Below are positions 3,075 to 16,078 of a stretch of 20,196 bases of DNA, one piece after another. The notes under the pieces were generated by a model. The model saw only the letters and a program-made list of their open reading frames with translations. It did no database searches and was not told the origin of the DNA. Position numbers and translations under genes: made by a program. The number at the start of each line of letters is the position of its first letter. Positions within the stretch are counted from its first letter, which is position 1. The DNA is taken from contig JACRIR010000145.1 in assembly GCA_016215705.1 (NCBI GenBank), positions 1 through 20,196 on the forward strand, written 5' to 3'. Origin of the DNA: Candidatus Poribacteria bacterium (GTDB taxonomy: Bacteria; Abyssobacteria; SURF-5).

Positions 3075-3103
3075 TTGACATGCCCTTTTTCGGGGAATAT
3101 AAT
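3075..3103 (+). promoter_or_regulatory. Consensus sigma-70 promoter of the sensor kinase operon
   Basis: Perfect TTGACA (3075-3080), a 17-bp spacer, and perfect TATAAT (3098-3103). Transcription should start near 3110, leaving a leader of about 110 nt before the TTG start at 3219. Such a strong match suggests steady housekeeping-type expression of the two-component pair. Confidence 0.85.
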
Positions 3104-3218
3104 TATTTTGTAGTTCCGTTACGTTTCCATCCACATAACTTCGGTCTCCGCCGCACACGGCGCGTTGTTTCACCCCGCATCGATCGGCAACATTGACCAC
3201 CCCGAAGGAGAATCGGCC

Positions 3219-5090
3219 TTGAACCTCTTGGGTGGCCTGCGCGCAAGAGTAATCGGACTCACTGTCGCGATAGTCGTCGTGTTTATGTCCACATGTTTTC
3301 TCGTGTTGTTGCACATGAATCGCGCGCACACGCTGAGCCGCTTCGAAGAACTTACCGCGCGCATGAGCGAACTTATTGCGGTCGGGCTGGAGAACGACAT
3401 GCTTGACCGAGACCTGAATCTCGTGAATAAAATGGCCGTGGGCCTCTCCGAGCATGACAGTGTTGAAGCCATCAACATCCTGAACAAGAAGGGAGAAGTG
3501 AAGATTTCTTCCGAGAAGGCAATGCTCGGCCGATATCTTGACACCAGGAGCGACGGCTGCAGGATTTGCCACGAGGTTCCGCCCGAATCCCGACGCCGCA
3601 GCGCCATTGTCGCCGTCAACGGCCGTCGCGTCTTCCGCAGCGTGCTTCCAATCGCCAACAAGCCCGCGTGTCATTCCTGTCATTCGCCCGCCGAAAAGGT
3701 CAACGGCATGCTCATCGCAGATTTCTCGATGGAGCTGTTTGATCGCGAAATGCGCGCCGGCCTTTTAAGCATGATCGCGGCCATTGCGGTAACGATCTCG
3801 GGGCTGACCGGATTTATCTGGATGCTGATGGCCAGCCAGATCATACGCCGTCTCGACAGATTCCTCGAGGGAGTGCGCCTCCTTTCCACGGGCGATCTCA
3901 GCGGTCAGATCGCCGTCGAGGGACGCGACGAAATATCCGATCTCGAGCGCGCGTTCAATTCCATGGCTTCAAATCTGCAGGCAAGCATGGCGGAAGTCAA
4001 GTTCGCGCGCGACTCGCTCGCGAACCTCATCAACAGCATCACCGATGAAATCATCGTGATTGACCGGGATTTTCGAATCGTAACAGCCAACCATGCGGCG
4101 CTCTCGCGGCTCGGCAAGCGGCAAGAGGAAATCCTCGGACGCTTCTGCCATGACGTTTGCTACAACCTGCCTGAGCCATGCAGCGACCCCGAGCGGGATT
4201 GCCCCGTGCGGGCAACCTTCTCGAGCGGTGTCTCGTACTCGACGTCCCGGGCCGTCGCCGTAAATGGAGAAAATCGCTATCTCGAGCAATATGTCTCGCC
4301 GGTGAGGAACGAAACGGGCGAAATCATCCAGGTCGTCAAGATTTCCCGCGACGTGACCCGACGCCGAAAGCTTGAAGAGCAACTGGTGCAATCGGAGCGC
4401 TTGATTTCCTTGGGACAGCTTGCCGCCGGCGTTGCGCACCAGGTGAACAACCCCATCGGTATTATCGTAAACCGAATCGATTGTCTCAAACGCGAGAGCA
4501 AGACAGCGCAACTTCCCGAATCGTTCCAGGCCGATCTTGACGTGATGGTGAACTGCGCCTGGCGCGTATCTGAGATTATCCGGAACCTGCTCACCTTCTC
4601 GCGCGAGACGCCGCTCATAGTGGAATCGGTCGATGTGAACCGGGCGATCAAGACCTCGCTTGATCTCATACAGATGCAGGCCGTCAACCATGAGATAACG
4701 TTTGAAGCCCTTCTTGGCGACGGCTTGCCCTTTGTCAGAGGCGATGTTAACAAACTCGAACAATGTTTTGTCAACATCATCAACAACGCCGTCGACGCCA
4801 TTCCCTCGCGCGGGCGAGTGACGGTGGAGAGTTCGCTCTGTGATGAGGGGCGCGCGGTCAGCGTTCGAATATCCGACACCGGCGTGGGCATCGCGCCTGA
4901 ACACATGGAAAAGATTTTCGACCCCTTTTTTACGACGAAGGGGGTGGGTAAAGGAACAGGGCTGGGGTTGTCCATCAGTTATGGCATTGTTAAGGACCAC
5001 GGAGGCCGGCTCGACGTCGAAAGTGTGCCGGGGGAGGGGACCACGTTCACGATAACGCTCCCGATACGGAAGGAAGTGGAACACCGATGA
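3219..5090 (+). CDS. Membrane histidine kinase with a di-haem c periplasmic sensor
   Basis: This 623-residue sensor kinase has a first membrane helix (about 10-32), a periplasmic domain of about 150 residues holding two CxxCH haem c motifs (CRICH 114-118, CHSCH 151-155), and a second helix (about 181-205). HAMP follows (about 202-257), then a PAS domain (about 267-377) with a Cys cluster (310, 314, 321, 328). HisKA has its phospho-acceptor His407 in AHQVNNP. The HATPase has an N box (NIINNAVDA), a G1 box (DTGVG) and a G2 box (GKGTGLGL). The start is TTG 3219, with AAGGAG 8 bp upstream; an in-frame TTG at 3165 has no such site. The stop overlaps the regulator start (ATGA). Inference: periplasmic haem redox state or a haem ligand is the signal. 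Haem attachment needs the cytochrome c maturation machinery, which is not in this window. Confidence 0.93.
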   Translation: MNLLGGLRARVIGLTVAIVVVFMSTCFLVLLHMNRAHTLSRFEELTARMSELIAVGLENDMLDRDLNLVNKMAVGLSEHDSVEAINILNKKGEVKISSEKAMLGRYLDTRSDGCRICHEVPPESRRRSAIVAVNGRRVFRSVLPIANKPACHSCHSPAEKVNGMLIADFSMELFDREMRAGLLSMIAAIAVTISGLTGFIWMLMASQIIRRLDRFLEGVRLLSTGDLSGQIAVEGRDEISDLERAFNSMASNLQASMAEVKFARDSLANLINSITDEIIVIDRDFRIVTANHAALSRLGKRQEEILGRFCHDVCYNLPEPCSDPERDCPVRATFSSGVSYSTSRAVAVNGENRYLEQYVSPVRNETGEIIQVVKISRDVTRRRKLEEQLVQSERLISLGQLAAGVAHQVNNPIGIIVNRIDCLKRESKTAQLPESFQADLDVMVNCAWRVSEIIRNLLTFSRETPLIVESVDVNRAIKTSLDLIQMQAVNHEITFEALLGDGLPFVRGDVNKLEQCFVNIINNAVDAIPSRGRVTVESSLCDEGRAVSVRISDTGVGIAPEHMEKIFDPFFTTKGVGKGTGLGLSISYGIVKDHGGRLDVESVPGEGTTFTITLPIRKEVEHR

Positions 5091-6493
5091 TTGCGTTAGA
5101 CGAGGCGGCGAAAACACAGAACATCCGAGTTCTCTGTGTCGATGACGAGGCCCCGATGCTCGAGGGCTATGCGCGCCTGCTGCGCTCGCTCGGCTATGAC
5201 TGCATCACGACGACGGACGGTTATCGCGCGATTGAGATCGTCAAATCCGAATCCCCGCATATTGTGCTCACTGACCTGAAAATGCCGGGGATCGACGGGA
5301 TTGCGCTTCTTGAGTCGGCAAAGAATATTGATCCTGATCTTGCCGTGATTGTCGTCACTGCATATGCAACGATACCGTCCGCTGTTGAGGCCGTCCGCAA
5401 AGGGGCCTTCGACTACGTCCCGAAGCCGTTTTCCGCCGACCAATTGGAAATCGTGTTGCAGAAGGCCTCGGAGCATCGCAGACTGCTCGACGAAAACAAG
5501 AGGTTGCGCGTGCAATTGCGCGACACCTATGCCTTTGGGAACATCATTGGAAAGAGCCAGCCGATGCAACGGGTGTTCGAAACCGTTTGCAAGATCGCGC
5601 CGAGCGACGCGAACGTGCTCATTTGCGGAGAAAGCGGCACGGGAAAAGAACTCATCGCCCGCAGCATCCACGCAAACGGACCACGCGCAAATCAAGGGTT
5701 CGTCCCCGTCGATTGCGCCTCGTTGCCGGAAACGCTGCTCGAAAGCGAACTTTTCGGACACGAGAAAGGCGCATTCACGGGCGCGCACACCGACCGGCCC
5801 GGCCTGTTCGAGTTTGCCAACCACGGCACGGTCTTTCTCGATGAAATCAGCGATCTCGCGCCGAGCATACAGGCGAAACTGCTTCGCGTCCTGCAGGAGC
5901 ATCGAGTGCGACGCCTCGGCGGCCGGCGCGAGATAGCCATAGACATCCGCATCATCTCCGCTAGCAACCGCGACCTCGAGGCCGCAGTCGCCCAGAAACA
6001 GTTTCGCGAGGATTTGTTCTACCGGTTGAACGTAATTTCGATAAAGCTGCCGCCGCTTCGAGACCGGTCCGGGGACATTGAACTCTTGGCAAATCATTTC
6101 CTCCGTAAGTTTGGCAAAAGCGTCATACGGCCGCCGGTCAGAATTTCCACTGATGTGATAGAACATCTTTTGCGTCATTCATGGCCGGGCAATGTCAGGG
6201 AATTGCAAAATGTAATCGAGCGCGCGGTTTCGCTCTGTGAAAGCGACGCTATCTCGGTCGCCGACCTGCCCGAGCGCATCCGGAGTTTCGGCGCGCCTCT
6301 GCCAACTGATCCGATGCGCGTATCGCTGCGCGAGGCAAGGCGCATCTGGCTCGAGCCGCTTGAAAAGGACTATCTCAAGAACCTTCTCGAGCGACACGGC
6401 GGCAACGTCTCCGAGGCTGCCCGCGCCGCCGAGATCGATCGACAGACGATCTATCGGCTTCTCAAGAAATACGGCATCAAGAGTTTTGAGTGA
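5087..6493 (+). CDS. Sigma-54-dependent response regulator, NtrC family
   Basis: The 468-residue product has three domains. The receiver (1-125) has acidic Asp19/Asp20, phospho-acceptor Asp63 in LTDLKMPG, Thr91 and Lys113. The AAA+ domain (about 150-390) has Walker A GESGTGKE (181-188), the sigma-54 contact loop GAFTGA (228-233), Walker B in TVFLDE, and the arginine-finger region FREDLFYRLNV. A Fis-type helix-turn-helix closes the protein (about 436-462, GGNVSEAARAAEIDRQTIY). Length is typical. It overlaps the kinase gene by 4 bp, so the two are translationally coupled and form a cognate pair. The candidate target is the -24/-12 promoter at 6757-6772, directly downstream. Confidence 0.96.
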   Translation: MIALDEAAKTQNIRVLCVDDEAPMLEGYARLLRSLGYDCITTTDGYRAIEIVKSESPHIVLTDLKMPGIDGIALLESAKNIDPDLAVIVVTAYATIPSAVEAVRKGAFDYVPKPFSADQLEIVLQKASEHRRLLDENKRLRVQLRDTYAFGNIIGKSQPMQRVFETVCKIAPSDANVLICGESGTGKELIARSIHANGPRANQGFVPVDCASLPETLLESELFGHEKGAFTGAHTDRPGLFEFANHGTVFLDEISDLAPSIQAKLLRVLQEHRVRRLGGRREIAIDIRIISASNRDLEAAVAQKQFREDLFYRLNVISIKLPPLRDRSGDIELLANHFLRKFGKSVIRPPVRISTDVIEHLLRHSWPGNVRELQNVIERAVSLCESDAISVADLPERIRSFGAPLPTDPMRVSLREARRIWLEPLEKDYLKNLLERHGGNVSEAARAAEIDRQTIYRLLKKYGIKSFE

Positions 6494-6511
6494 CAAAAAC
6501 AGAGCCGAAAG

Positions 6512-6540
6512 TGTGACATCTATCCTACATCTGTGACATC
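6512..6540 (+). promoter_or_regulatory. Direct repeat TGTGACATC x2, candidate activator site
   Basis: TGTGACATC occurs at 6512-6520 and again at 6532-6540, exactly 20 bp (two helical turns) apart, about 220-245 bp before the -24 element. Same-face spacing suggests cooperative binding. It is not a CRP palindrome. Confidence 0.45.
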
Positions 6541-6568
6541 AATGCCCCAAGTGGCCGCCGCCTCCATT

Positions 6569-6669
6569 CCGGACACCCCCGGACAGCTCTCCTGAGCTGA
6601 CGGCAGGGCCCTGCCTGCAACACGAATCCCACACATTCATACCAACGCGCTGCCGCCGGACAACTCTCT
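6569..6669 (+). promoter_or_regulatory. CCGGACA repeats, candidate enhancer (UAS) sites
   Basis: CCGGACA occurs at 6569-6575, 6579-6585 and 6656-6662. The last two extend to CCGGACAGCTCTCC and CCGGACAACTCTCT (12 of 14 match). They end about 165 and 89 bp before the -24 element, within the usual range for NtrC-family enhancers. Confidence 0.45.
6584..6615. promoter_or_regulatory. Two adjacent dyads, operator or weak terminator
   Basis: CAGCTC-TCCT-GAGCTG (6584-6599) is followed after 2 bp by the perfect 14-bp palindrome GGCAGGGCCCTGCC (6602-6615). No T run follows, so a rho-independent terminator for the regulator gene is doubtful. Protein binding is the alternative. Confidence 0.4.
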
Positions 6670-6756
6670 ATCCCGGTATGTGAAAATGCAAAACATATTT
6701 GGCTGCAACATCTTCGGTGATCAGCCACAAAGCACCCGGCAGCGCCTCTTAAGCGC

Positions 6757-6772
6757 TGGCACATGGATTGCC
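6757..6772 (+). promoter_or_regulatory. Sigma-54 (-24/-12) promoter of the respiratory operon
   Basis: TGGCAC, 5 bp, TTGCC: the invariant GG (6758-6759) and GC (6770-6771) have the required 10 bp between them, and nearly all other positions match consensus. Predicted transcription start is about 6783, leaving a leader of about 55 nt before the ATG at 6839. The preceding gene encodes a GAFTGA-type sigma-54 activator, which strongly supports function. Confidence 0.82.
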
Positions 6773-6838
6773 TTGTATAGTTGCCGACCGGTGCGAATAA
6801 AGTCTATCACGGAAGGTTACACGGGATGGGCGATTCTT

Positions 6839-7231
6839 ATGGTAGAACTCGGGAATGTTCTCATCCTGACGAGCGATGAAGATTTTCGGTGGCAGGCCAC
6901 CAGAGGTCCTGTCGGACGGGAATGCAGAGCAAAGGTGTTACGAGAAAGCGGCGAAGCCGTCCTGAGCGTCCTGGAGGATGACATCGACGTAGTCGTGCTT
7001 GACGCCGACGGCAAGGAGCTGAAGTCATTGATCACAACCGTCAGAATAATCGAGAAATGCAGGCCGCGGATTCCGGTGGTGCTTGTGACAAGCAATAAGT
7101 CTATTTTGAATGGGGCCGAGATATTAAAGGAGAATATCTTCTACTTTGTGATAAAGCCCGCGAACCCGGAAGAGTTGGGCGAGGTCGTTTTCAGGGCGAT
7201 CAAGAAGAAACATCATCTGGAGAAGATATAG
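6839..7231 (+). CDS. Stand-alone receiver-like (CheY-fold) protein
   Basis: The 130-residue product is first in the sigma-54 operon. It looks like a divergent receiver domain: an acidic cluster SDED (12-15) after the first strand, a candidate phospho-acceptor Asp55 in VVVLDADG, Thr84/Ser85 after the fourth strand (VLVTSN), and Lys106 in FVIKPANP, with a C-terminal helix. There is no output domain. The region after the first strand is longer and unlike classical receivers. The ATG at 6839 is preceded only by a weak GGGATGGG; upstream in-frame starts (as far as 6680) would run through the promoter and give a non-homologous N-terminus. It could be a phosphate sink, an adaptor for the neighbouring kinase, or a feedback regulator; the sequence cannot tell which. 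Confidence 0.75.
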   Translation: MVELGNVLILTSDEDFRWQATRGPVGRECRAKVLRESGEAVLSVLEDDIDVVVLDADGKELKSLITTVRIIEKCRPRIPVVLVTSNKSILNGAEILKENIFYFVIKPANPEELGEVVFRAIKKKHHLEKI

Positions 7232-7256
7232 GTCGATCGGAGGCGGCATACAGCTC

Positions 7257-7778
7257 ATGAGCATGAGGACGATTAGCCTTACGCTGGCGGTGATTATCAT
7301 TCTTGTTGTTTCAAGCGGGTGGAGCCTCTTTTGGATGCGAACGGTCAAGGTCGAACAACCGATTCAGTTTAATCACCAAAAGCATCACGTCGAACTCGAA
7401 CTGGAGTGCGGCTTCTGCCATCCGTATGTTTCGAACAACGCCGCTGCGGGGTTGCCGGGCGCCGAGCTTTGTGGGACGTGTCACGAAGTCGGCGTCGCGA
7501 ATGATAATCCTCGGTTCGCCGAGGTTACAACCGCCGTGCAGGGTTACCTCGAGCGACGCGAAGCGATTCCATGGGTGCGCATGTATCAGGCCCCGTCGCA
7601 CGTAATCTTCTCTCATGAGCGCCATCTCGAGGCGCACGTAGACTGCTCCGAATGTCACGGCGCGACTGGTGTTGGCACGATTCCCCTGGCGGAGCCTCGC
7701 AGGATCACCATGAAAAGCTGTGTGGAATGCCATGAAAAGCGACGCGCGTCGCTCGACTGTCTCGCGTGTCACAAATAA
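7257..7778 (+). CDS. Membrane-anchored pentahaem cytochrome c, QrcA/ActA-like
   Basis: The 173-residue product has one N-terminal membrane helix (about 5-27, uncleaved anchor) and five CxxCH haem c motifs: CGFCH 51-55, CGTCH 72-76, CSECH 130-134, CVECH 155-159 and CLACH 168-172. Extra His residues (FNHQKHH, FSHERHLEAH) suit bis-His ligation as in cytochrome c3/c7. Position directly before the Mo-family, FeS and NrfD genes matches QrcA (six haems in Desulfovibrio) and ActA of Alternative Complex III (five haems). It should pass electrons between the complex and periplasmic cytochromes. GGAGG lies 13 bp before the ATG, a longer gap than usual; no better start exists in frame. Confidence 0.9.
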   Translation: MSMRTISLTLAVIIILVVSSGWSLFWMRTVKVEQPIQFNHQKHHVELELECGFCHPYVSNNAAAGLPGAELCGTCHEVGVANDNPRFAEVTTAVQGYLERREAIPWVRMYQAPSHVIFSHERHLEAHVDCSECHGATGVGTIPLAEPRRITMKSCVECHEKRRASLDCLACHK

Positions 7779-7806
7779 GTCCGCGCAGGGAGTCGGGAGT
7801 CACATT

Positions 7807-10224
7807 ATGAGATTGACACGAAGATATTTTCTGAAGATGGCTGGCGCCGGCGCGGCTGCGGCAGGCGCGTGGCGCCTCAAAAGCAGGCCTGTGACCACGG
7901 CGGCCGATTCCTCACAGCCGCCGTCGGAACCGGGCCAGGAGCGCTGGGTCAAAAGCGCCTGCCTTCAATGTCCGGCAACCTGCGGGCTCAACGTGCGGGT
8001 GGTGGATGGCCACCCGGTGAAGATTGAGGGCAATCCCGAGCATCCTATCAACCGGGGCGGTCTGTGCCCCAAGGGGCAGGCAGGCCTGCAGGTGCTCTAC
8101 GACCCGGACAGGATCAGGTCGCCGCTCAAATGCAACGGTGAACGCGGCTCCGGCAATTTCAAGGAAATTACATGGCAGGAAGCGATAACCGAAGTCGCAG
8201 GCAGATTGAGCAGCCTGCGCGAGACAGGCCAGTCGCATACCGTGGGAATCCTTACCGGCAGATGCAGAGGAACGATGGGGCTTCTTATCGACAGGTTCCT
8301 CGAAGCGTATGGGTCGCCGAACAATTTCGCGCACGGCGCCGCAGGCACTGAGCCCATCCTTATCGGTAATTTTCTCACCAATGGCGTAAAAGACTATTTT
8401 GCCTATGACTGGGCGGGCACGGACTACCTCTTATGCTTCGGCGCCAGCTTCCTTGAAGCATGGAGAACAGGTGTCCACTTGCAGAGGGCATACGGATTAA
8501 TGCGCCGAGGCCGGCCGGGCGAACGGACGAAAATCGTGGTCATCGACCCGCGTTTCTCCGTTACGGCGGCCAAAGCCGACGAATGGGTGCCCATCAATCC
8601 CGGCACAGATTCAGCGCTCGCGCTCGCCGTTGCTCACGTGTTCGTCAAGGAATCTCTATACGACTCCGACTATGTGGGAAGGCACGGGTTTGGTTTCGAG
8701 GACTGGACGCACCCGGACGGCACGAAGCACATGGGTTTCCGCACCCTCGTCTTGAACCAGTACTCGCCTGAAACCGTTTCTCCATTGGTTGGCGTTTCAG
8801 CCGACACGATCTACCGCCTCGCGGAGGAGTTCGCGGCGAACAAACCGGCGCTCGCGATGGCGGGTAGGGGTGCCTGTGGCCATTCCAGCGGAGCTTATAC
8901 GCAAATGGCCGTCAACTGCCTCAACGCTCTTCTGGGGAGTTTTGAGATTCCGGGCGGCGCTCTGGCCCAGCGAGAGCCGCCATGGGACCCCCTGCCGAAG
9001 ATCACGCCGGACGCGCTGGCCCGTTCCGGCCGAGCGCAGAGGCGGTTGGATTCATCGGAGCAGGATTCGCGTCCCTTTATCGAAAACCGGTTCGACATTC
9101 TTGTCGATAATATCGCCGCCAGAAGGCCGTATCCGCTCAATACCCTCTTTCTCTACTACTCGAATCCCTTGTACAGTTTTGCGGAACCTCGCAGGATGCT
9201 TGCCGCTGTAAGAACGATCCCGTTCGTAGTCAGCTTTTCTCCGTTCATGGACGAAAGCTGCAAGTATGCCGACTTGATTCTGCCCGACCACACCTATCTT
9301 GAGCGATGGCAAGACGCCCCGGTTGAGCCGAGCGTCGGATTCGCGGCAGTAGGATTGCGGCAGCCGGTGACGCCGCCTCTCTACAACACTATGAACGCGG
9401 GCGATTGCATTATCCGGATCGCGAGGGAACTCGGCGGACCGACCGGCGCTGCGTTCCCGTGGCCGGATTACGAGGAACTGCTCAAGGAACGCTTCCGGTC
9501 CATTTACAGGAACACGATCCCTCGTGACAAGACGTTCGAGGAGTTCTGGGAACATGTTTGCGCGAATGGCGGCTGGTGGGAACAGCAGTATATTCACGGC
9601 AACTGGGAAAACATATTCAAAACTTCCGGCAACCGCTTCGCGTTCTTCTCTCACGAACTGCAGAGAAGATTTGAGGAGTCGTCAGCGGCGCGCGCCAAGC
9701 GGGAGGGCATTACGCGGGGGGCGGCCCACGAGAAGAATCTGCAGGACTTCGGCATCCAAGCGCGAGGCGACGTAGTCTATCTTCCTCACTACGAACCAGC
9801 CCGATTCATCGGCGCCGAACGCGACTTCCCGCTCCGGCTGAACTTATTCAAGACGATGACCCAGGCTGAGGGCCGCGGCGCCAACGAGCCGTACTTGCAA
9901 GAAATCTTCGGACTGCATCTGCTCGAATCGTGGAATTCATGGGTCGAGCTTTCGCGCGAGGACGCCCACGAATTCGGAATCAGCGACGGCGATGACGTAT
10001 GGGTGGAATCCGCGATAGCGCGCATCCGGGCAAAAGCGAGAATCTATGCCGGAGCGAAGCCGGGGGTGCTCAACATGCCCTATGGACAAGGGCATACCTC
10101 CTATGGCCGGTGGGCGGAAAACCGGGGCAGCAATCCGAACGAAATCGTGCCAGCCGCATGTGATCAATTGGGCGGCTCGGTCGCCGGGCAAGCGGTCAGG
10201 GTGAGGATTTACAGACCAAGTTGA
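7807..10224 (+). CDS. Tat-exported molybdopterin oxidoreductase-family subunit, QrcB-like
   Basis: The 805-residue product has a twin-arginine signal (TRRYFLK, residues 4-10, then an Ala/Gly-rich stretch), so the folded protein is exported. An N-terminal [4Fe-4S] site follows: Cys52, Cys55, Cys59, Cys87. The molybdopterin oxidoreductase core comes next, and a C-terminal dinucleotide-binding domain (about 675-800, with NMPYGQGH). At the place where this family normally has a Cys, SeCys or Ser ligand to Mo or W, the sequence reads FAHGAAGTEP, with none. QrcB and ActB likewise belong to the family but lack the metal cofactor. This makes a structural or electron-relay role more likely than an oxyanion reductase, though an unrecognised substrate is possible. 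The start is ATG 7807 after GGGAGT. Confidence 0.9.
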   Translation: MRLTRRYFLKMAGAGAAAAGAWRLKSRPVTTAADSSQPPSEPGQERWVKSACLQCPATCGLNVRVVDGHPVKIEGNPEHPINRGGLCPKGQAGLQVLYDPDRIRSPLKCNGERGSGNFKEITWQEAITEVAGRLSSLRETGQSHTVGILTGRCRGTMGLLIDRFLEAYGSPNNFAHGAAGTEPILIGNFLTNGVKDYFAYDWAGTDYLLCFGASFLEAWRTGVHLQRAYGLMRRGRPGERTKIVVIDPRFSVTAAKADEWVPINPGTDSALALAVAHVFVKESLYDSDYVGRHGFGFEDWTHPDGTKHMGFRTLVLNQYSPETVSPLVGVSADTIYRLAEEFAANKPALAMAGRGACGHSSGAYTQMAVNCLNALLGSFEIPGGALAQREPPWDPLPKITPDALARSGRAQRRLDSSEQDSRPFIENRFDILVDNIAARRPYPLNTLFLYYSNPLYSFAEPRRMLAAVRTIPFVVSFSPFMDESCKYADLILPDHTYLERWQDAPVEPSVGFAAVGLRQPVTPPLYNTMNAGDCIIRIARELGGPTGAAFPWPDYEELLKERFRSIYRNTIPRDKTFEEFWEHVCANGGWWEQQYIHGNWENIFKTSGNRFAFFSHELQRRFEESSAARAKREGITRGAAHEKNLQDFGIQARGDVVYLPHYEPARFIGAERDFPLRLNLFKTMTQAEGRGANEPYLQEIFGLHLLESWNSWVELSREDAHEFGISDGDDVWVESAIARIRAKARIYAGAKPGVLNMPYGQGHTSYGRWAENRGSNPNEIVPAACDQLGGSVAGQAVRVRIYRPS

Positions 10225-10234
10225 GGAGTCACAC

Positions 10235-10936
10235 ATGGCCCGTTGGGGAATGGTAATCGACCTTGATAAATGTACTGCGTGTCAGGCATGCGTTGTGGCG
10301 TGCCGGCAGGAAAACAATGTGCCGTTCGCAGGCGAAGAACAGGCGGCCATGGGCCGCGCCATTTTCTGGATGCAGCTCATCCCGATTCTCGAGGGCGAAT
10401 ACCCGAAACTAAAAGCACGCTATCTCCCGCGGCCGTGCTTCCACTGCGATAATCCGCCGTGCGTAAGAGTGTGCCCCGTCGGCGCTACATACAAGAACCC
10501 TGAGGGTCTCGTCGGACAGATTTACGCGCGCTGCATTGGCTGCAGGTACTGCACAGCCGCCTGCCCTTACACCGCGCGATACTTCAATTGGCGCGCTCCA
10601 CACTGGCCCGCCGAGGCGGCCGACAAGATGAACCCCGATGTGTATGTGCGGACAAAGGGCGTAGTGGAGAAATGTTCATTCTGCGTGCACCGCATCCGCA
10701 AGGCAAAAGAAAAAGCGCGCGCCGAGAACCGGCAGATCAGGGACGGTGAGGTCAAGCCGGCGTGCGCCGAAACCTGCCCGAGCAATGCGATCTTCTTCGG
10801 CGACCTTGACGATCCTCGCAGCCTGGTCTCTATCCTGGCACGCAGCCGCCGGGCTTTCAGACTCGAGGAGCACCTGGGCACTGAACCAAAAGTCATCTAT
10901 CTGCGAGAAGGAGAATGGGATGAAAGGCAGGTCTGA
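10235..10936 (+). CDS. Four-cluster ferredoxin-type subunit, QrcC/NrfC/PsrB-like
   Basis: The 233-residue product has 16 cysteines in four groups able to bind four [4Fe-4S] clusters: 13/16/19/23, 68/71/76/80, 100/103/106/110, and 147/150 with 177/181. This is the layout of the DmsB/NrfC/PsrB/QrcC family. It has no signal peptide, so it is expected to ride through Tat with the preceding subunit. It links the Mo-family subunit to the NrfD-type membrane subunit. It starts 10 bp after the previous stop with GAGGAG 6 bp upstream, and its 3' end overlaps the next gene by 17 bp. All expected Cys residues are present. Confidence 0.95.
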   Translation: MARWGMVIDLDKCTACQACVVACRQENNVPFAGEEQAAMGRAIFWMQLIPILEGEYPKLKARYLPRPCFHCDNPPCVRVCPVGATYKNPEGLVGQIYARCIGCRYCTAACPYTARYFNWRAPHWPAEAADKMNPDVYVRTKGVVEKCSFCVHRIRKAKEKARAENRQIRDGEVKPACAETCPSNAIFFGDLDDPRSLVSILARSRRAFRLEEHLGTEPKVIYLREGEWDERQV

Positions 10937-12269
10937 TTTTACGGTCGACGATGAAATCGCCATTTTGAGTCCTGTTCTCAGGACGGGCAAGGGATTCTAC
11001 GTGGCGACGCTGCTCCTGCTTTCCATTATGGGTTGGGCTTTCTTTGCCTGGCTCAACCAGATCACTTTCGGTTTGGGCGTAACGGGTATGAACCGGCCCG
11101 TGTACTGGGGAATCTACATTACTAATTTCGTCTTCTTCGTGGGCATCAGCCACGCAGGCACGCTCATATCGGCGATCCTGCGTGTGACGGGCGCCGAGTG
11201 GCGAAGGCCTATAACGCGCGCTGCAGAAGCGATCACCGTTTTCGCACTGATGGTCGGACCCATCAATGTCTTCTTCGATCTTGGCCGGCCTGATCGCGTT
11301 CTCAACATGTTTCTGAACGGGCGGCTGCAATCCCCGCTCATCTGGGACTTCGTGTGTATCGGAACTTATTTGGCCTGCAGCCTGACCTATCTCTACCTGC
11401 CGCTCATCCCTGACATCGCCCTTTTGCGCGACCGCTCGAGCAAGCGAGGCTGGCTGTACCGGACGCTTGCGCTCGGCTGGACAGGATCGCCCGGACAGAA
11501 GCATCGCCTCGAACGGTTAATCTCGGTGATGGCAATTATCATCATCCCCATCGCCATCTCGGTACACACCGTGGTCTCATGGGTTTTCGCGATGACCGTT
11601 CAACCCATGTGGCATAGCACCATCTTCGGACCCTATTTTGTCGTCGGCGCAATTTTCTCCGGGATTGCATCCCTGATCATAGCGATGGCTGTGCTGCGCA
11701 GGGTGTTCCATATGGAGAGGTACCTGCAGCCCGTCCATTTCAACAACCTGGGGCTGCTGTTGCTGACCATGTCGCTGTTGTGGTTCTATTTCACATTTGC
11801 GGAGTTCTTGACGACTTTCTACGGCGCCGAGCCTGCCCATCTCGAAGTCTTTTACTCAAAGCTGCGAGGCGAATTTGCGCCGTTGTTCTGGACAATGTTC
11901 ACGTGCTGCTTCGCGCTGCCGTTCGGCATCCTCGTGTTCAAGCGGACCCGCACAATCACCGGGACGGTTGTGGCTTCGATTTTCGTAAACATCGGAATGT
12001 GGCTCGAGCGATATACTATAGTGGTTCCCTCGCTCAGCCGGCCGAGATTGCCATACCCGTTCGGGAAATACTTTCCCACATGGGTCGAACTCTCCATCAC
12101 ACTCGGATGCTTCGCCGCGCTTGTATTCTTCTATGTCGTCTTCTCAAAATTGTTCCCGATAATTTCGGTATGGGAACTGAAGGAAGGGGCTCGCGCGCCG
12201 GGAACCGGCGAGAAGCCCGCCGAGGAGCCGGCAGAGCCCGTGTACGGGATAAGGGTCAACCGCTCGTGA
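10920..12269 (+). CDS. NrfD/PsrC-family quinone-interacting membrane subunit, QrcD/ActC-like
   Basis: The 449-residue polytopic protein has about ten hydrophobic segments, longer than eight-helix NrfD and like QrcD or ActC/ActF. Family motifs include MNRPVYWGIYITNF with GISHAGTLISA, a RPDRV loop, and SVHTVVSWVFA. The conserved polar residues in these helices are those proposed to form the quinol site and a proton path in the family. It anchors the complex and exchanges electrons with menaquinone or ubiquinone. The ATG at 10920 has AAGGAG 6 bp upstream and overlaps the FeS gene by 17 bp, showing translational coupling. The acidic/Pro-rich C-terminal tail (about 420-445) should be cytoplasmic. 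Confidence 0.94.
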   Translation: MKGRSDFTVDDEIAILSPVLRTGKGFYVATLLLLSIMGWAFFAWLNQITFGLGVTGMNRPVYWGIYITNFVFFVGISHAGTLISAILRVTGAEWRRPITRAAEAITVFALMVGPINVFFDLGRPDRVLNMFLNGRLQSPLIWDFVCIGTYLACSLTYLYLPLIPDIALLRDRSSKRGWLYRTLALGWTGSPGQKHRLERLISVMAIIIIPIAISVHTVVSWVFAMTVQPMWHSTIFGPYFVVGAIFSGIASLIIAMAVLRRVFHMERYLQPVHFNNLGLLLLTMSLLWFYFTFAEFLTTFYGAEPAHLEVFYSKLRGEFAPLFWTMFTCCFALPFGILVFKRTRTITGTVVASIFVNIGMWLERYTIVVPSLSRPRLPYPFGKYFPTWVELSITLGCFAALVFFYVVFSKLFPIISVWELKEGARAPGTGEKPAEEPAEPVYGIRVNRS

Positions 12270-12281
12270 GGTGGTCTTGTG

Positions 12282-13376
12282 ATGTTCTTCGACCCACAGT
12301 TCAAGGTTGCGCGCTCACGGAGCCGTATCTACCTTCTTCTCTCTGCGTTTTTCTGCCACCCGACGGAACACCCCCACGTCGAATTGGCGCTCAGCGTACT
12401 CGCAAGCTCATTCAACGGGTTGCCTGAGCGCTTCTTCAGCCGGCGGGCATCGCGCGCTGACTTCGATCGGTTCACTTCCGAGATTTCCCGGATTCGAAAA
12501 GAAGAATCCATCGAGTCGCTCTCGGCCCAATACCATCAGCTTTTGTCGCGAAACGGGCTGGCCCCCCCATATGAATCCTGTTATCGCGATTCGAATTCGG
12601 CGGACCGCAACATATCGTTGATCCAGCAGGTATATGCGCGATCAAAGTTCAGCGTCATGACATGCCCGGATGAGTCGCCCGACAATATCGTGACGCAGTT
12701 GGATTTCCTGCATTGCCTGAGTGAGGTGGAATCGGACTGTGTCATGGAGGAGAAGCCCGATGCGGCCGCTGAGAGCCGCAGACGCCAGGCTTCGTTTCTA
12801 TGGCAACACGTGAGAACATGGCTCCCCGTTTTCTGCGAGGCGGTTTCGGAGACGCCCACGTCGGATTTCTATCGACTGCTTTCGATAACGGCCGATTCGT
12901 TCACCAGACTTGATGCGGGATATCTGCTCACAATGACCAAAGCCGATCCCGGGTGCGAAGCAAGTTCCCGGGAAAACGGAAGGCTGGTCTCCCTCACCGT
13001 GGATACAGCGGCGTGCTCGCTCTGTGGCGCCTGCTGCGAGGTCTGCAAGAACGAAGCGCTGGTCATCGAACCGGGAGAGACGTTGCGTCTGCGCTATTTC
13101 AAACACCGATGCAATTTTTGCGGGGACTGCGGACAACTGTGTCCGGAAAATGCGATCAGCCTCGCCTCCGCCTGCGATCCCGCCTGCATGGCGGACAGCG
13201 TCCTCATCAGCAGAGAAATAGGTCTATGCCCGCGCTGCAGGAAGCCCAATGCTTTGGCCCCGGTCACAGGGAAAGTCATTGAACGACTTGGGACCGAAGT
13301 GCCCCAAAGCCTCGGCCAAAGATTGCTGCTTTGTCCCAGGTGCCGCGCCGTGGAATTTGGAAGAGCCGCGAAATAA
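12282..13376 (+). CDS. TorD-type chaperone fused to a ferredoxin and Cys-rich tail
   Basis: The 364-residue product has three parts. Residues 1-220 are a helical TorD/DmsD-like domain with the family's recognisable stretches SAQYHQLLSRNGLAPPYES and DNIVTQLDFLHCLSEVE. Residues 238-295 are a two-cluster ferredoxin (Cys245/248/251/255 and Cys277/280/283/287). Residues 310-360 hold two CPRC motifs (316-319, 351-354), like a zinc ribbon or rubredoxin knuckle. TorD proteins bind the Tat signal of a molybdoenzyme and check cofactor loading before export; the partner here should be the subunit at 7807. The ATG at 12282 is 7 bp after GAGGTGG, better placed than the GTG at 12279. The fused clusters suggest redox or Fe-S-linked proofreading (inference). 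Confidence 0.85.
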   Translation: MFFDPQFKVARSRSRIYLLLSAFFCHPTEHPHVELALSVLASSFNGLPERFFSRRASRADFDRFTSEISRIRKEESIESLSAQYHQLLSRNGLAPPYESCYRDSNSADRNISLIQQVYARSKFSVMTCPDESPDNIVTQLDFLHCLSEVESDCVMEEKPDAAAESRRRQASFLWQHVRTWLPVFCEAVSETPTSDFYRLLSITADSFTRLDAGYLLTMTKADPGCEASSRENGRLVSLTVDTAACSLCGACCEVCKNEALVIEPGETLRLRYFKHRCNFCGDCGQLCPENAISLASACDPACMADSVLISREIGLCPRCRKPNALAPVTGKVIERLGTEVPQSLGQRLLLCPRCRAVEFGRAAK

Positions 13377-13387
13377 TCCGCAATCAG

Positions 13388-13406
13388 CCGGCGGCGCGTA
13401 CGCCGG
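13388..13406 (+). other. GC-rich hairpin between the chaperone and cytochrome genes
   Basis: CCGGCG, a 7-nt loop, and CGCCGG form a 6-bp stem 11 bp after the chaperone stop. No T run follows, so it is more likely an mRNA stability or processing element in the 128-bp gap than a terminator. Confidence 0.35.
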
Positions 13407-13504
13407 TGAGTCTCGCGAGAGATTGGCTGGTTGCGACTCCGCCGAGGAGAAAGAGTTGGAGGAGGACGAAAACATCCCGACAGCAAGCTAGGAGGGAATT
13501 AGCC

Positions 13505-14653
13505 ATGAAAAGTATTGCTTTGCTGGGGGTGATTTGTGCATCTTTCGCCTGCGCCGATCCTGCGTTCACCCAGGATAGCGGTGTCACGAAAAACCTCTTC
13601 GCCAGCAGCGGTGTATGCAAGGAGTGCCATGCCGACATTCACAGTTTCTGGAAGAATTCGATGCACGCTTTTTCTTATTCCGATCCGATATTCAAAACGG
13701 CATACGAAAAAGCGATGAAGATTTCGCAGGAAGCGAAGGCATTGTGCTTGCAGTGCCACGCTCCCGCGACCCAACTTAACCGTGACTACGAGATGCAATA
13801 TGAAGTCACGCGCGAAGGAGTGACCTGTGACTTCTGTCATGTGGTCATCGCAGTCACGCGCGCGAGCGAAAACTTTGCTTACAAATTCAACCTCGACCGC
13901 ACTCGAGTCGGGCCGCTAAGAAACGCCGATTCCCCGATCCACGCCTCCGCATACTCTGAACTCCATACGAAGTCTGAAATCTGCGCCGGCTGTCATGAAT
14001 ACACAAACCCGGCCGGCGTGAGGCTTCTCGAGACGTACAGCGAATGGAAACAAAGCCCCTATGCGGCTGAGGGCGTCCAATGCCAGGGCTGCCACATGCC
14101 GATCGGCGAGGGATACGTCGTTCGCCCGGGCGTAAGACAATCGCCCAAGGGCATCAATCTCCACAATTTGCAGGGCGGCCATTCCATCGACAAAGTGAAA
14201 ATGGCGGCAAAGGTTCGGATTTCCGATATCCAGAAATTTCATGAAGGCGCACGGATAACGGTTGAAGTGACGAACACGGGTTCCGGACATCGCATCCCGA
14301 CCGGCACTCCGAGTCGCGAGCTCCTGCTCGAAATCAGTTTGCTCAGCGTTTCGGCGAATCAGCTCATCCAGAAGAAGGAACTTGTATTCGATAAAACACT
14401 GACAGATAAACACGGCCGTATTCTGGATGGCGACGCCGAGATTATGCTGAGTGCGGGCAGAATTCTGAGTGACACCCGCATCTGGCCCCGCGAGACGCGC
14501 ACAAGCCAGTTTACCTTTGTCGGATTGCCCTCCAATCTGTACAGGATTCGGGCAAAGCTGTACTATAATTACATTGCTGAGACCTCACCCGGGCAGGTTC
14601 AGCAAATGCTCGTCGAGATGGTGTCCGACGAGAAGCCGATCTCCATAGAATAG
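13505..14653 (+). CDS. Secreted pentahaem cytochrome c, c554-like
   Basis: The 382-residue product has a Sec signal (about 1-22, ending near AFTQ) and five CxxCH motifs: CKECH 38-42, CLQCH 81-85, CDFCH 108-112, CAGCH 160-164 and CQGCH 193-197. The SFWKNSMH and ECHADIH context is that of the cytochrome c554/multihaem family. A beta-rich C-terminal domain (about 230-380) contains SGHRIPTGTPSRELLL, a motif that recurs in such proteins. The product is periplasmic or surface-facing. It ends the operon and has a strong AGGAGG 9 bp before the ATG, after a 128-bp gap. It probably is the soluble partner of the membrane complex or a reductase for an unknown small molecule; the substrate is not evident. 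The gene is convergent with the next one, 45 bp away. Confidence 0.9.
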   Translation: MKSIALLGVICASFACADPAFTQDSGVTKNLFASSGVCKECHADIHSFWKNSMHAFSYSDPIFKTAYEKAMKISQEAKALCLQCHAPATQLNRDYEMQYEVTREGVTCDFCHVVIAVTRASENFAYKFNLDRTRVGPLRNADSPIHASAYSELHTKSEICAGCHEYTNPAGVRLLETYSEWKQSPYAAEGVQCQGCHMPIGEGYVVRPGVRQSPKGINLHNLQGGHSIDKVKMAAKVRISDIQKFHEGARITVEVTNTGSGHRIPTGTPSRELLLEISLLSVSANQLIQKKELVFDKTLTDKHGRILDGDAEIMLSAGRILSDTRIWPRETRTSQFTFVGLPSNLYRIRAKLYYNYIAETSPGQVQQMLVEMVSDEKPISIE

Positions 14654-14698: not shown

Positions 14699-16078
14699 CT
14701 ATGGCCCGAGATAGAGCGGCAGCCTTACTTCAAAAGACGGGGAGAGTTTTCGCTTCAGTTCGTCGGCGTCCAACGCGAAAAGGGGGCTGATTTCCAACAG
14801 TCCCTTGACACGGCCGCCTGCATTATGCGGAATCTGCATGCCTGCGCCCTCCAGCCATTTCGCGTACAGCCGAATCATCAAATCGCGGGCGGTTTCCGGA
14901 CTGTCTTCGCCGTCGGCATTCTTTATCGGCGCAAACTCTTCGTCACGATTGACCTCCACAATGGCCGAAGCTTGCGCGTGGCTCAAGGCATCGAAAACAA
15001 ATCTTTCGAACTTCAATCCGTTCTTCTGTTTTGGCTTCACCAATTCGCCGCGGTCATCTAGAAACGGTATCGCTTTCTCGGCGATATGAAACGGCAGGGA
15101 ATGTTTCTCTGCGTTCAGTCGTTCGACGAAGCTGACGCTGAGAACGTGGATCGCCAGATTGCCGGCGGAGAACCTGAGAGAGCCGTCCTTATTCAGCGCA
15201 TACTTGTGTTCCTTCGGCAGATCGCTGTACTCGATGACCGTCGTAATGTCGCCCAGACGACACACAACGCCCACCTTTTCTTCCGGGTCGCGCTTGGGAG
15301 CAACTTTTACGGACATCTCGGCCCCCTTCGCAATATGGTAACCGATGAAGATGGGGTCGCCTATCTTGATCAACACGTTATCGACCTGAAAGTAAGAGAG
15401 GTATTTGATGCCGCGCGCTTTCATGTCGGCAAGCGCGCCGGATTTCTCGAGCGAAGAGATCGAGCCTCCATGCCCGTTGGGACTCGCAAAAATGTGGTCT
15501 TTCGCATCGAGCACAAGCCTGCCTTCAAGATCGAGCGCAGGCATCATGTCCTGCTTGAAGAAGAACACGTCGGCGGGATTAAGCCCGAAGTGTCTGTGTC
15601 GCTCAAAAAACTCTCGCGTGGGCTCGCCGTTCGTCTCGCTCGTCATAACGTAAAACGGAAACGGTTTCCCGTATCTTTTCGAGATCGCCCGAATCTTCTC
15701 CGCGTGATGCTCGAATATCGTTTTCTTCTTTATCGGCGTTATCTTGAAGGTTCCTTTCGGCGTCTCGATGCCAAGCCGGGTCGCCTGGCCGCCGGCCACA
15801 AGAAACGCCGCAACTTCGCCCGCTCTAAAAGCTTCCTCGCCGATTCTCCTGATTCTCTCGAGCGCCGAGATTTCACCCTTCGTCTTCGGAAGAGAAATCA
15901 CATCGGCAGGCTCGATTCCTTCAAGCGAAACAGGTGGTTTCCCTTCTCTGTAGCGCCTTGACAGGGAGTCCAACTCATCGAAATCGATCGAGGACAACTG
16001 CTGCAAGAGACGCGCGCGACCCCTCTCGCCGATTTCGTTCCACCATCGTAGGACGTGGCCGTGACCGTTGCGTATCAC
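14699..16078 (-). CDS. UDP-N-acetylglucosamine/UDP-sugar pyrophosphorylase, UAP1 (UDPGP) family
   Basis: The enzyme makes UDP-sugars from UTP and a sugar 1-phosphate. Family motifs are VAGGQATRLG followed by PKGTF (nucleotide loop), FYVMTSETNGEPT, FFKQDMMPALD, SPNGHGG, YFQVDNVLIKIGDP, and FERFVFDAL. These fit the eukaryotic-type UAP1 family rather than bacterial GlmU. The start is uncertain. The conserved helix (HVLRWWNEI) begins within eight residues of GTG 16078, which lacks a ribosome binding site; taking it gives 459 residues. The frame stays open upstream through a palindromic repeat (encoding NPPSPPFTKGG) and into the HEAT gene, but has no start codon until at least 16249, deep inside that gene. 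The original 5' end may have been altered by repeat insertion. Confidence 0.85.
   Translation of the reverse strand: MIRNGHGHVLRWWNEIGERGRARLLQQLSSIDFDELDSLSRRYREGKPPVSLEGIEPADVISLPKTKGEISALERIRRIGEEAFRAGEVAAFLVAGGQATRLGIETPKGTFKITPIKKKTIFEHHAEKIRAISKRYGKPFPFYVMTSETNGEPTREFFERHRHFGLNPADVFFFKQDMMPALDLEGRLVLDAKDHIFASPNGHGGSISSLEKSGALADMKARGIKYLSYFQVDNVLIKIGDPIFIGYHIAKGAEMSVKVAPKRDPEEKVGVVCRLGDITTVIEYSDLPKEHKYALNKDGSLRFSAGNLAIHVLSVSFVERLNAEKHSLPFHIAEKAIPFLDDRGELVKPKQKNGLKFERFVFDALSHAQASAIVEVNRDEEFAPIKNADGEDSPETARDLMIRLYAKWLEGAGMQIPHNAGGRVKGLLEISPLFALDADELKRKLSPSFEVRLPLYLGP

Follow-up and report, generated by a model that had tools for sequence, protein, structure and literature searches.

The window analysed here is a stretch of 20,196 nt on contig JACRIR010000145.1 of a Candidatus Poribacteria bacterium (GCA_016215705.1), and all coordinates refer to its forward strand. 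Genes for a sensor histidine kinase and a sigma-54 activator are followed in it by a sigma-54 promoter element and a seven-gene operon:

3075–3103, + strand: sigma-70 promoter upstream of the kinase gene, 12/12 consensus (TTGACA-17-TATAAT), by sequence match
3219–5090, + strand: sensor histidine kinase; periplasmic Cache-like domain with two CxxCH motifs between two TM helices, then HAMP, PAS, HisKA and HATPase_c
5087–6493, + strand: NtrC-type sigma-54 activator; receiver, AAA+ domain with GAFTGA, Fis-type HTH
6512–6540, + strand: two copies of TGTGACATC, 20 bp apart; candidate activator site (putative function)
6757–6772, + strand: -24/-12 sigma-54 promoter element, TGGCACATGGATTGCC
6839–7231, + strand: stand-alone receiver protein, ATG start at 6839
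7257–7778, + strand: membrane-anchored pentahaem cytochrome, QrcA/ActA-like, five CxxCH motifs
7807–10224, + strand: Mo-family subunit; Tat signal, FS0 Cys motif, Gly180 at the Mo-ligand position
10235–10936, + strand: FeS subunit with 16 Cys, QrcC/ActB-C-terminal type
10920–12269, + strand: NrfD-family membrane subunit, ActC-type, quinone-site Asp122
12279–13376, + strand: TorD-like chaperone fused to a ferredoxin domain
13505–14653, + strand: secreted pentahaem cytochrome; cytochrome c554 type N-terminus, beta-rich C-terminal domain

The module is flanked upstream by an epimerase gene (1971–2993, + strand) and downstream by a gene for a UDPGP-family nucleotidyltransferase, which lies on the opposite strand from position 14699. 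The protein encoded at positions 582–1475 on the minus strand matches the cyclic-nucleotide-binding domain twice and no other Pfam domain. All parts listed in a preliminary description of this DNA (kinase, activator, promoter and seven-gene operon) were found in the sequence, and the kinase, called di-haem there, does carry two CxxCH motifs in its Cache-type periplasmic domain. Some of its start codons needed correction; its range began at the sigma-70 promoter (3075), upstream of the kinase gene. Its 'packed operon' is correct as to gene order but not as to the last cytochrome gene (13505–14653), which is separated from the TorD-ferredoxin gene by a 128-nt gap. The AlphaFold model of this last cytochrome, built from three sequences, has a pLDDT below 50 across residues 1–230, the haem part.

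The best start of the kinase gene is the TTG codon at 3219, with AAGGAG at 3205–3210; the gene ends at 5090. HAMP, PAS, HisKA and HATPase_c domains are recognized by Pfam, and the catalytic motifs are present, as befits the kinase of an NtrC-type two-component system. The two CxxCH motifs are located at residues 114 and 151, in a sensor region that matches the Pfam families PF21563 and PF11845 solely below their cut-offs. In an alignment of 20 kinase relatives the first CxxCH is present in 19, and the columns of Cys151, His155 and Met61 are kept in all 20. Relatives without the second CxxCH usually carry a CX4CH-like sequence at the same place, and most of the family may therefore be di-haem. 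In Geobacter the haem motif has also been written as CX2-4CH (PMC8396549). Foldseek searches seeded with an AlphaFold model of the sensor, which was obtained from two sequences and is of low confidence (pLDDT 62), gave the Cache sensor domains of WalK and KinD as best matches; the haem-c sensors 3b42 and 3b47 ranked lower and superposed poorly on the model. On the evidence of the motifs and the alignment the CxxCH sequences lie within a periplasmic Cache domain, the fold itself being predicted from this low-confidence model.

The invariant Met61 could act as the sixth haem ligand, a role that would speak for a redox-linked switch. For the Geobacter haem-c sensors, signalling has been proposed to proceed via a redox-linked change of haem ligation, the axial Met being bound when the haem is reduced (PMC8396549). 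The main rival to redox sensing is sensing of NO. The haems might bind NO or another diatomic gas, in which case the complex would be induced by nitrosative stress or by a change of electron acceptor, not by the redox state of the pool. NO is bound by a HAMP-linked haem-c Cache protein (PMC12889525), and oxidised GSU0582 displays high affinity for NO (PMC8396549). We nevertheless regard a gas sensor as unlikely, considering the possible ligand Met61, the absence of an NO-detoxification gene from the module and the repeated occurrence of this kinase family beside NrfD-type quinone complexes and multihaem cytochromes.

The activator gene starts at 5087 and overlaps the end of the kinase gene by 4 nt. 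With a Walker A motif at residue 181 and GAFTGA at residue 228, its product is the coupled GAFTGA activator anticipated in the preliminary description. The pair is preceded by a perfect sigma-70 promoter of its own (3075–3103). The -24/-12 promoter previously noted downstream of the activator gene corresponds to TGGCACATGGATTGCC at 6757–6772; its core, CTGGCAC-N5-TTGC, is unique in the window (0.02 occurrences expected from shuffles), and the ATG of the receiver gene (6839) is found 66 nt past the element. The sequence TGTGACATC occurs twice in the window, against 0.12 expected, and this pair is perhaps the site bound by the activator.

In order to establish the identity of the complex, its subunits were compared with those of the menaquinone reductase Qrc and of alternative complex III (ACIII). 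None reaches the curated NCBIfam cut-off for Qrc, the scores (bits/cut-off) being 87.6/180 for QrcA, 291/440 for QrcB, 295/400 for QrcC and 36.5/570 for QrcD. The nearest solved structure to the NrfD subunit is ActC of ACIII (6f0k_C, E 8e-73), and that to the FeS subunit is the C-terminal half of ActB (6f0k_B, E 5e-63). When the ActC residues listed in PMC8076601 were mapped onto the NrfD protein of the window, all 13 residues of the N-side half-channel and four of the six of the P-side half-channel were found to be kept. At the quinone site, Ser164 and Asp169 of ActC are likewise kept (Ser140 and Asp145), but His139 is replaced by Asp122 and Asp253 by Val224. The quinone site of QrcD and DsrP contains Asp and Ser (PMC8076601). 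Asp122, Val224 and the same channel residues are common to nine related NrfD sequences, whereas the ActC encoded elsewhere in the same genome retains the quinone-site His and Asp. That genome also encodes an ACIII with fused ActB plus ActF (L132, contig C251), and on contigs C7 and C13 it has two further loci with QrcB proteins that score above the NCBIfam cut-off. Distinct from this ACIII and from both Qrc loci, the window complex is thus a third type within one genome.

The NrfD protein of the window clusters with ActC-type proteins, away from the QrcD-like proteins of its own genome family. A genuine Qrc was ruled out by the NCBIfam scores together with this branching, and a genuine ACIII by the unfused ActB and the quinone-site residues. 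Judging from its sequences, the complex is best regarded as a sister of ACIII and Qrc that is unfused and has a Qrc-like quinone-site Asp, and it is probably a quinone:cytochrome c oxidoreductase. As to the direction of electron flow, analogy leans both ways: the quinone-site Asp, like that of Qrc, would favour quinone reduction, the ActC scaffold quinol oxidation. The label 'Qrc-like' given previously is apt for the unfused core and the quinone-site Asp, but the NrfD and FeS subunits resemble those of ACIII at least as much.

The Mo-family subunit has ArrA and PsrA as its best solved relatives. In both alignments the Cys that is the Mo ligand of these two enzymes falls on or next to Gly180. 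Four FS0 Cys residues (52, 55, 59 and 87) have been retained, as has a Tat-type N-terminus, and most close relatives are likewise devoid of the ligand Cys. Three relatives in genome G058 (L039, L027 and L041) retain a Cys at the Mo-ligand spacing. QrcB has been reported to be without redox cofactor (PMC13059093).

The subunit could nonetheless be an active Mo/W oxidoreductase, which would make the operon a substrate-specific respiratory reductase or dehydrogenase and the kinase a sensor of the matching condition. The TorD-like chaperone suggests Moco insertion and counts against our preferred explanation; with a protein of this type in the operon, active Mo is therefore still conceivable, and the retained FS0 motif and Tat signal, the kinship with ArrA and PsrA and the Cys of the G058 relatives are in keeping with it. 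We consider this alternative improbable, since Gly180 replaces the ligand Cys, a position not occupied by Cys in most relatives either, and since the pentahaem cytochrome and the ActC-type subunit belong to the ACIII/Qrc set, whose Mo-family subunit is reported to be cofactor-less (PMC6303296, PMC13059093). The trees of the Mo-family and NrfD proteins conflict, the window grouping with L036 and L073 in one and with L042, L045, L054 and L044 in the other, which points to exchange of subunits between complexes (window 7807–12269).

In order to find out whether kinase, activator and operon co-occur elsewhere, as the preliminary description had proposed, we searched for related loci, in which genes were called mechanically. 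The pair, the site and the operon recur as a unit in L036 (MHDQ01000127), from the Nitrospinae-labelled MAG Nitrospinae bacterium RIFCSPLOWO2_12_FULL_45_22. The order there is di-haem kinase, activator, -24/-12 site, 136-aa receiver, pentahaem cytochrome, Mo-family subunit (49%), FeS subunit (64%), NrfD, TorD-ferredoxin, Band-7 protein, another cytochrome and second pentahaem cytochrome. L042, in the same genome, likewise presents kinase, activator, sigma-54 site and operon, but its kinase (594–2180) has a different sensor sequence, lacks CxxCH and contains a single CX4CH (CHNGQCH, residue 95); haem c sensing may thus have arisen a second time at operons of this kind. In L112 a kinase (35% over 612 aa), an activator and then a receiver precede the gene for an 11-haem cytochrome. 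L113 (3735–7123, genome G088) encodes another di-haem kinase and activator, and the sigma-54 site after them has the same sequence as in L042 (TGGCATAAAAATTGCT).

A sigma-54 site scoring at least 26 was found within the 400 bases upstream of 11 of 18 related operons, compared with 1.9% of random 400-base stretches, with p values that serve as a guide only, given our own scoring scheme and the relatedness of the loci. The count becomes 9/16 without L052 and L053, whose starts were set by hand after the site had been seen, and 6/10 if each genome contributes a single operon. The distance from site to start codon is 65–76 bases in five operons. No such site was found in the 400 bases upstream of the ACIII operon of the same genome. 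In L045, L074 and L077 divergent sigma-54 sites, one per direction, separate the operon from the second pentahaem cytochrome gene.

An NrfD-family gene is located within 9 kb of the kinase gene in 14 of the 20 kinase-family loci, window included (~3% expected), and in most of the 20 an activator or receiver gene adjoins the kinase gene. Relatives of the haem kinase adjoin operons for NrfD and NrfC-type FeS proteins in L123 (same genome as the window, G000:C225), L115, L117, L118, L119, L120 and L129; these operons often include a multihaem cytochrome gene, plus one to three GCV_H (lipoyl-domain, PF01597) matches. Homologous operons devoid throughout of kinase, regulator and promoter, the case named beforehand as contrary to the proposal, are not what L036, L042 and the 11 of 18 upstream sites display. 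The link is nevertheless not universal, which counts against our preferred explanation: a haem motif is absent from the kinases adjoining L076 and L077, two of the related operons, and in L045, L073 and L074 the promoter occurs with no kinase–activator pair beside it. The latter loci, together with the 30 strong matches to sigma-54 activators in the genome, would suit a different activator driving the 6757 promoter while the adjacent pair acts elsewhere, but this seems to us improbable in view of the kinase–activator–site–operon order shared with L036 and L042, the clustering of the kinase family with NrfD operons and the presence of a sigma-54 activator gene at most 5.1 kb from four of the eight NrfD genes of the genome. 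A further point against the preferred explanation is that the window operon was not found in two compared genomes of the same family, where an ACIII-like NrfD (41%) was the only match at the search threshold; the module was therefore either gained here or lost there.

The explanation that we prefer, by a little more than even chances, is that of a self-contained module in which the haem kinase reports on the condition of the electron pool in the periplasm, the activator opens the 6757 promoter and the quinone:cytochrome c oxidoreductase is expressed. Kinase and activator would be produced from their own sigma-70 promoter. The two c-type haems of the Cache-like domain would report the pool through their redox state or a change of ligation, a step modelled on the proposal for the Geobacter haem-c sensors, and the kinase would then phosphorylate the NtrC-type activator. 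The latter would bind upstream, perhaps at the TGTGACATC pair, and open the sigma-54 promoter, giving rise to the pentahaem cytochrome, a Mo-family scaffold without Mo-ligand Cys, an FeS protein with Cys for four putative clusters and the ActC-type membrane subunit. TorD-ferredoxin would take part in assembly, and the second pentahaem cytochrome would be the periplasmic electron partner of the complex. Redox sensing by the haems would, as the preliminary description proposed, feed back on the complex. The sequence itself establishes the parts and their order, the promoter elements, the kept channel residues and the recurring wiring; phosphotransfer, activation of the promoter, the signal read by the haems and the direction of electron flow are inferred.

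To our knowledge, little is understood of how anaerobes match their quinone and periplasmic cytochrome complexes to periplasmic redox load, and detailed work on haem-c sensors has dealt with chemotaxis proteins. The presence of the same wiring in relatives from other bacterial groups suggests a general means by which cells fit their respiratory apparatus to the load of electrons outside the inner membrane, and the recurring association of haem-c kinases with sigma-54 activators and NrfD complexes in genomes points to targets on which this class of sensor can be tested. The window complex sits between ACIII and Qrc and therefore also bears on the origin of quinol oxidase and quinone reductase from one scaffold. 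More tentatively, with the chances slightly below even, di-haem c Cache kinases and sigma-54 activators may constitute a dedicated and widespread control of NrfD-type quinone/cytochrome c complexes, the window being one example and adding an undescribed family (unfused ACIII sister, ActC scaffold, Qrc-like quinone site).

The preliminary description knew of no system with exactly this set, and a full-text literature search of partial coverage agrees, having returned no described combination of haem kinase, sigma-54 and NrfD. Nothing on MccSep, a multihaem selenoprotein, came up in it either, and the words operon, NtrC and respiration are absent from the text of the haem-c Cache preprint. Sigma-54 control of CbcBA by BccR in Geobacter would be an expected precedent; the word BccR occurred in none of the papers found, and this case is not used as evidence. 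Already known are haem-c sensor domains and the predicted sigma-54 control of a cytochrome complex. The latter concerns the periplasmic cytochrome complex ohcBAC of Desulfovibrio, which, like the window, combines a membrane complex with a neighbouring predicted sigma-54 activator gene (DVU3142) and a sigma-54 promoter; unlike the window complex, it has a haem-b membrane subunit, and the passage describing it names no haem kinase (PMC4641369).

With ACIII (ActABCDEF) the window complex shares the ActC-type membrane subunit, the FeS part of ActB and the membrane-anchored pentahaem cytochrome. It differs in that the Mo-family and FeS proteins are encoded by separate genes, that there is a single NrfD with no ActD, ActE or ActF in the operon, that Asp and Val replace His139 and Asp253 at the quinone site, and that TorD-ferredoxin and a sigma-54 site are present. 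The unfused four-part core, the quinone-site Asp and the Mo-family subunit without Mo-ligand Cys are shared with QrcABCD. However, all four subunits fall below the NCBIfam cut-offs, the NrfD protein is distant from the QrcD branch, and the first cytochrome has five predicted haems (five CxxCH motifs) instead of the six haems c of QrcA (PMC8076601); TorD-ferredoxin, the receiver and the second pentahaem cytochrome are additions. The kinase resembles the haem-c Cache/PAS sensors (GSU0582 and GSU0935; DUF3365/Tll0287) in that CxxCH sits on a short helix within a Cache-like domain of the periplasm, and two-motif sensors are already known in the di-haem proteins GSU0591 and GSU0599. Unlike in these, the sensor of the window is part of a kinase coupled to a sigma-54 activator beside an operon of the ACIII/Qrc type.
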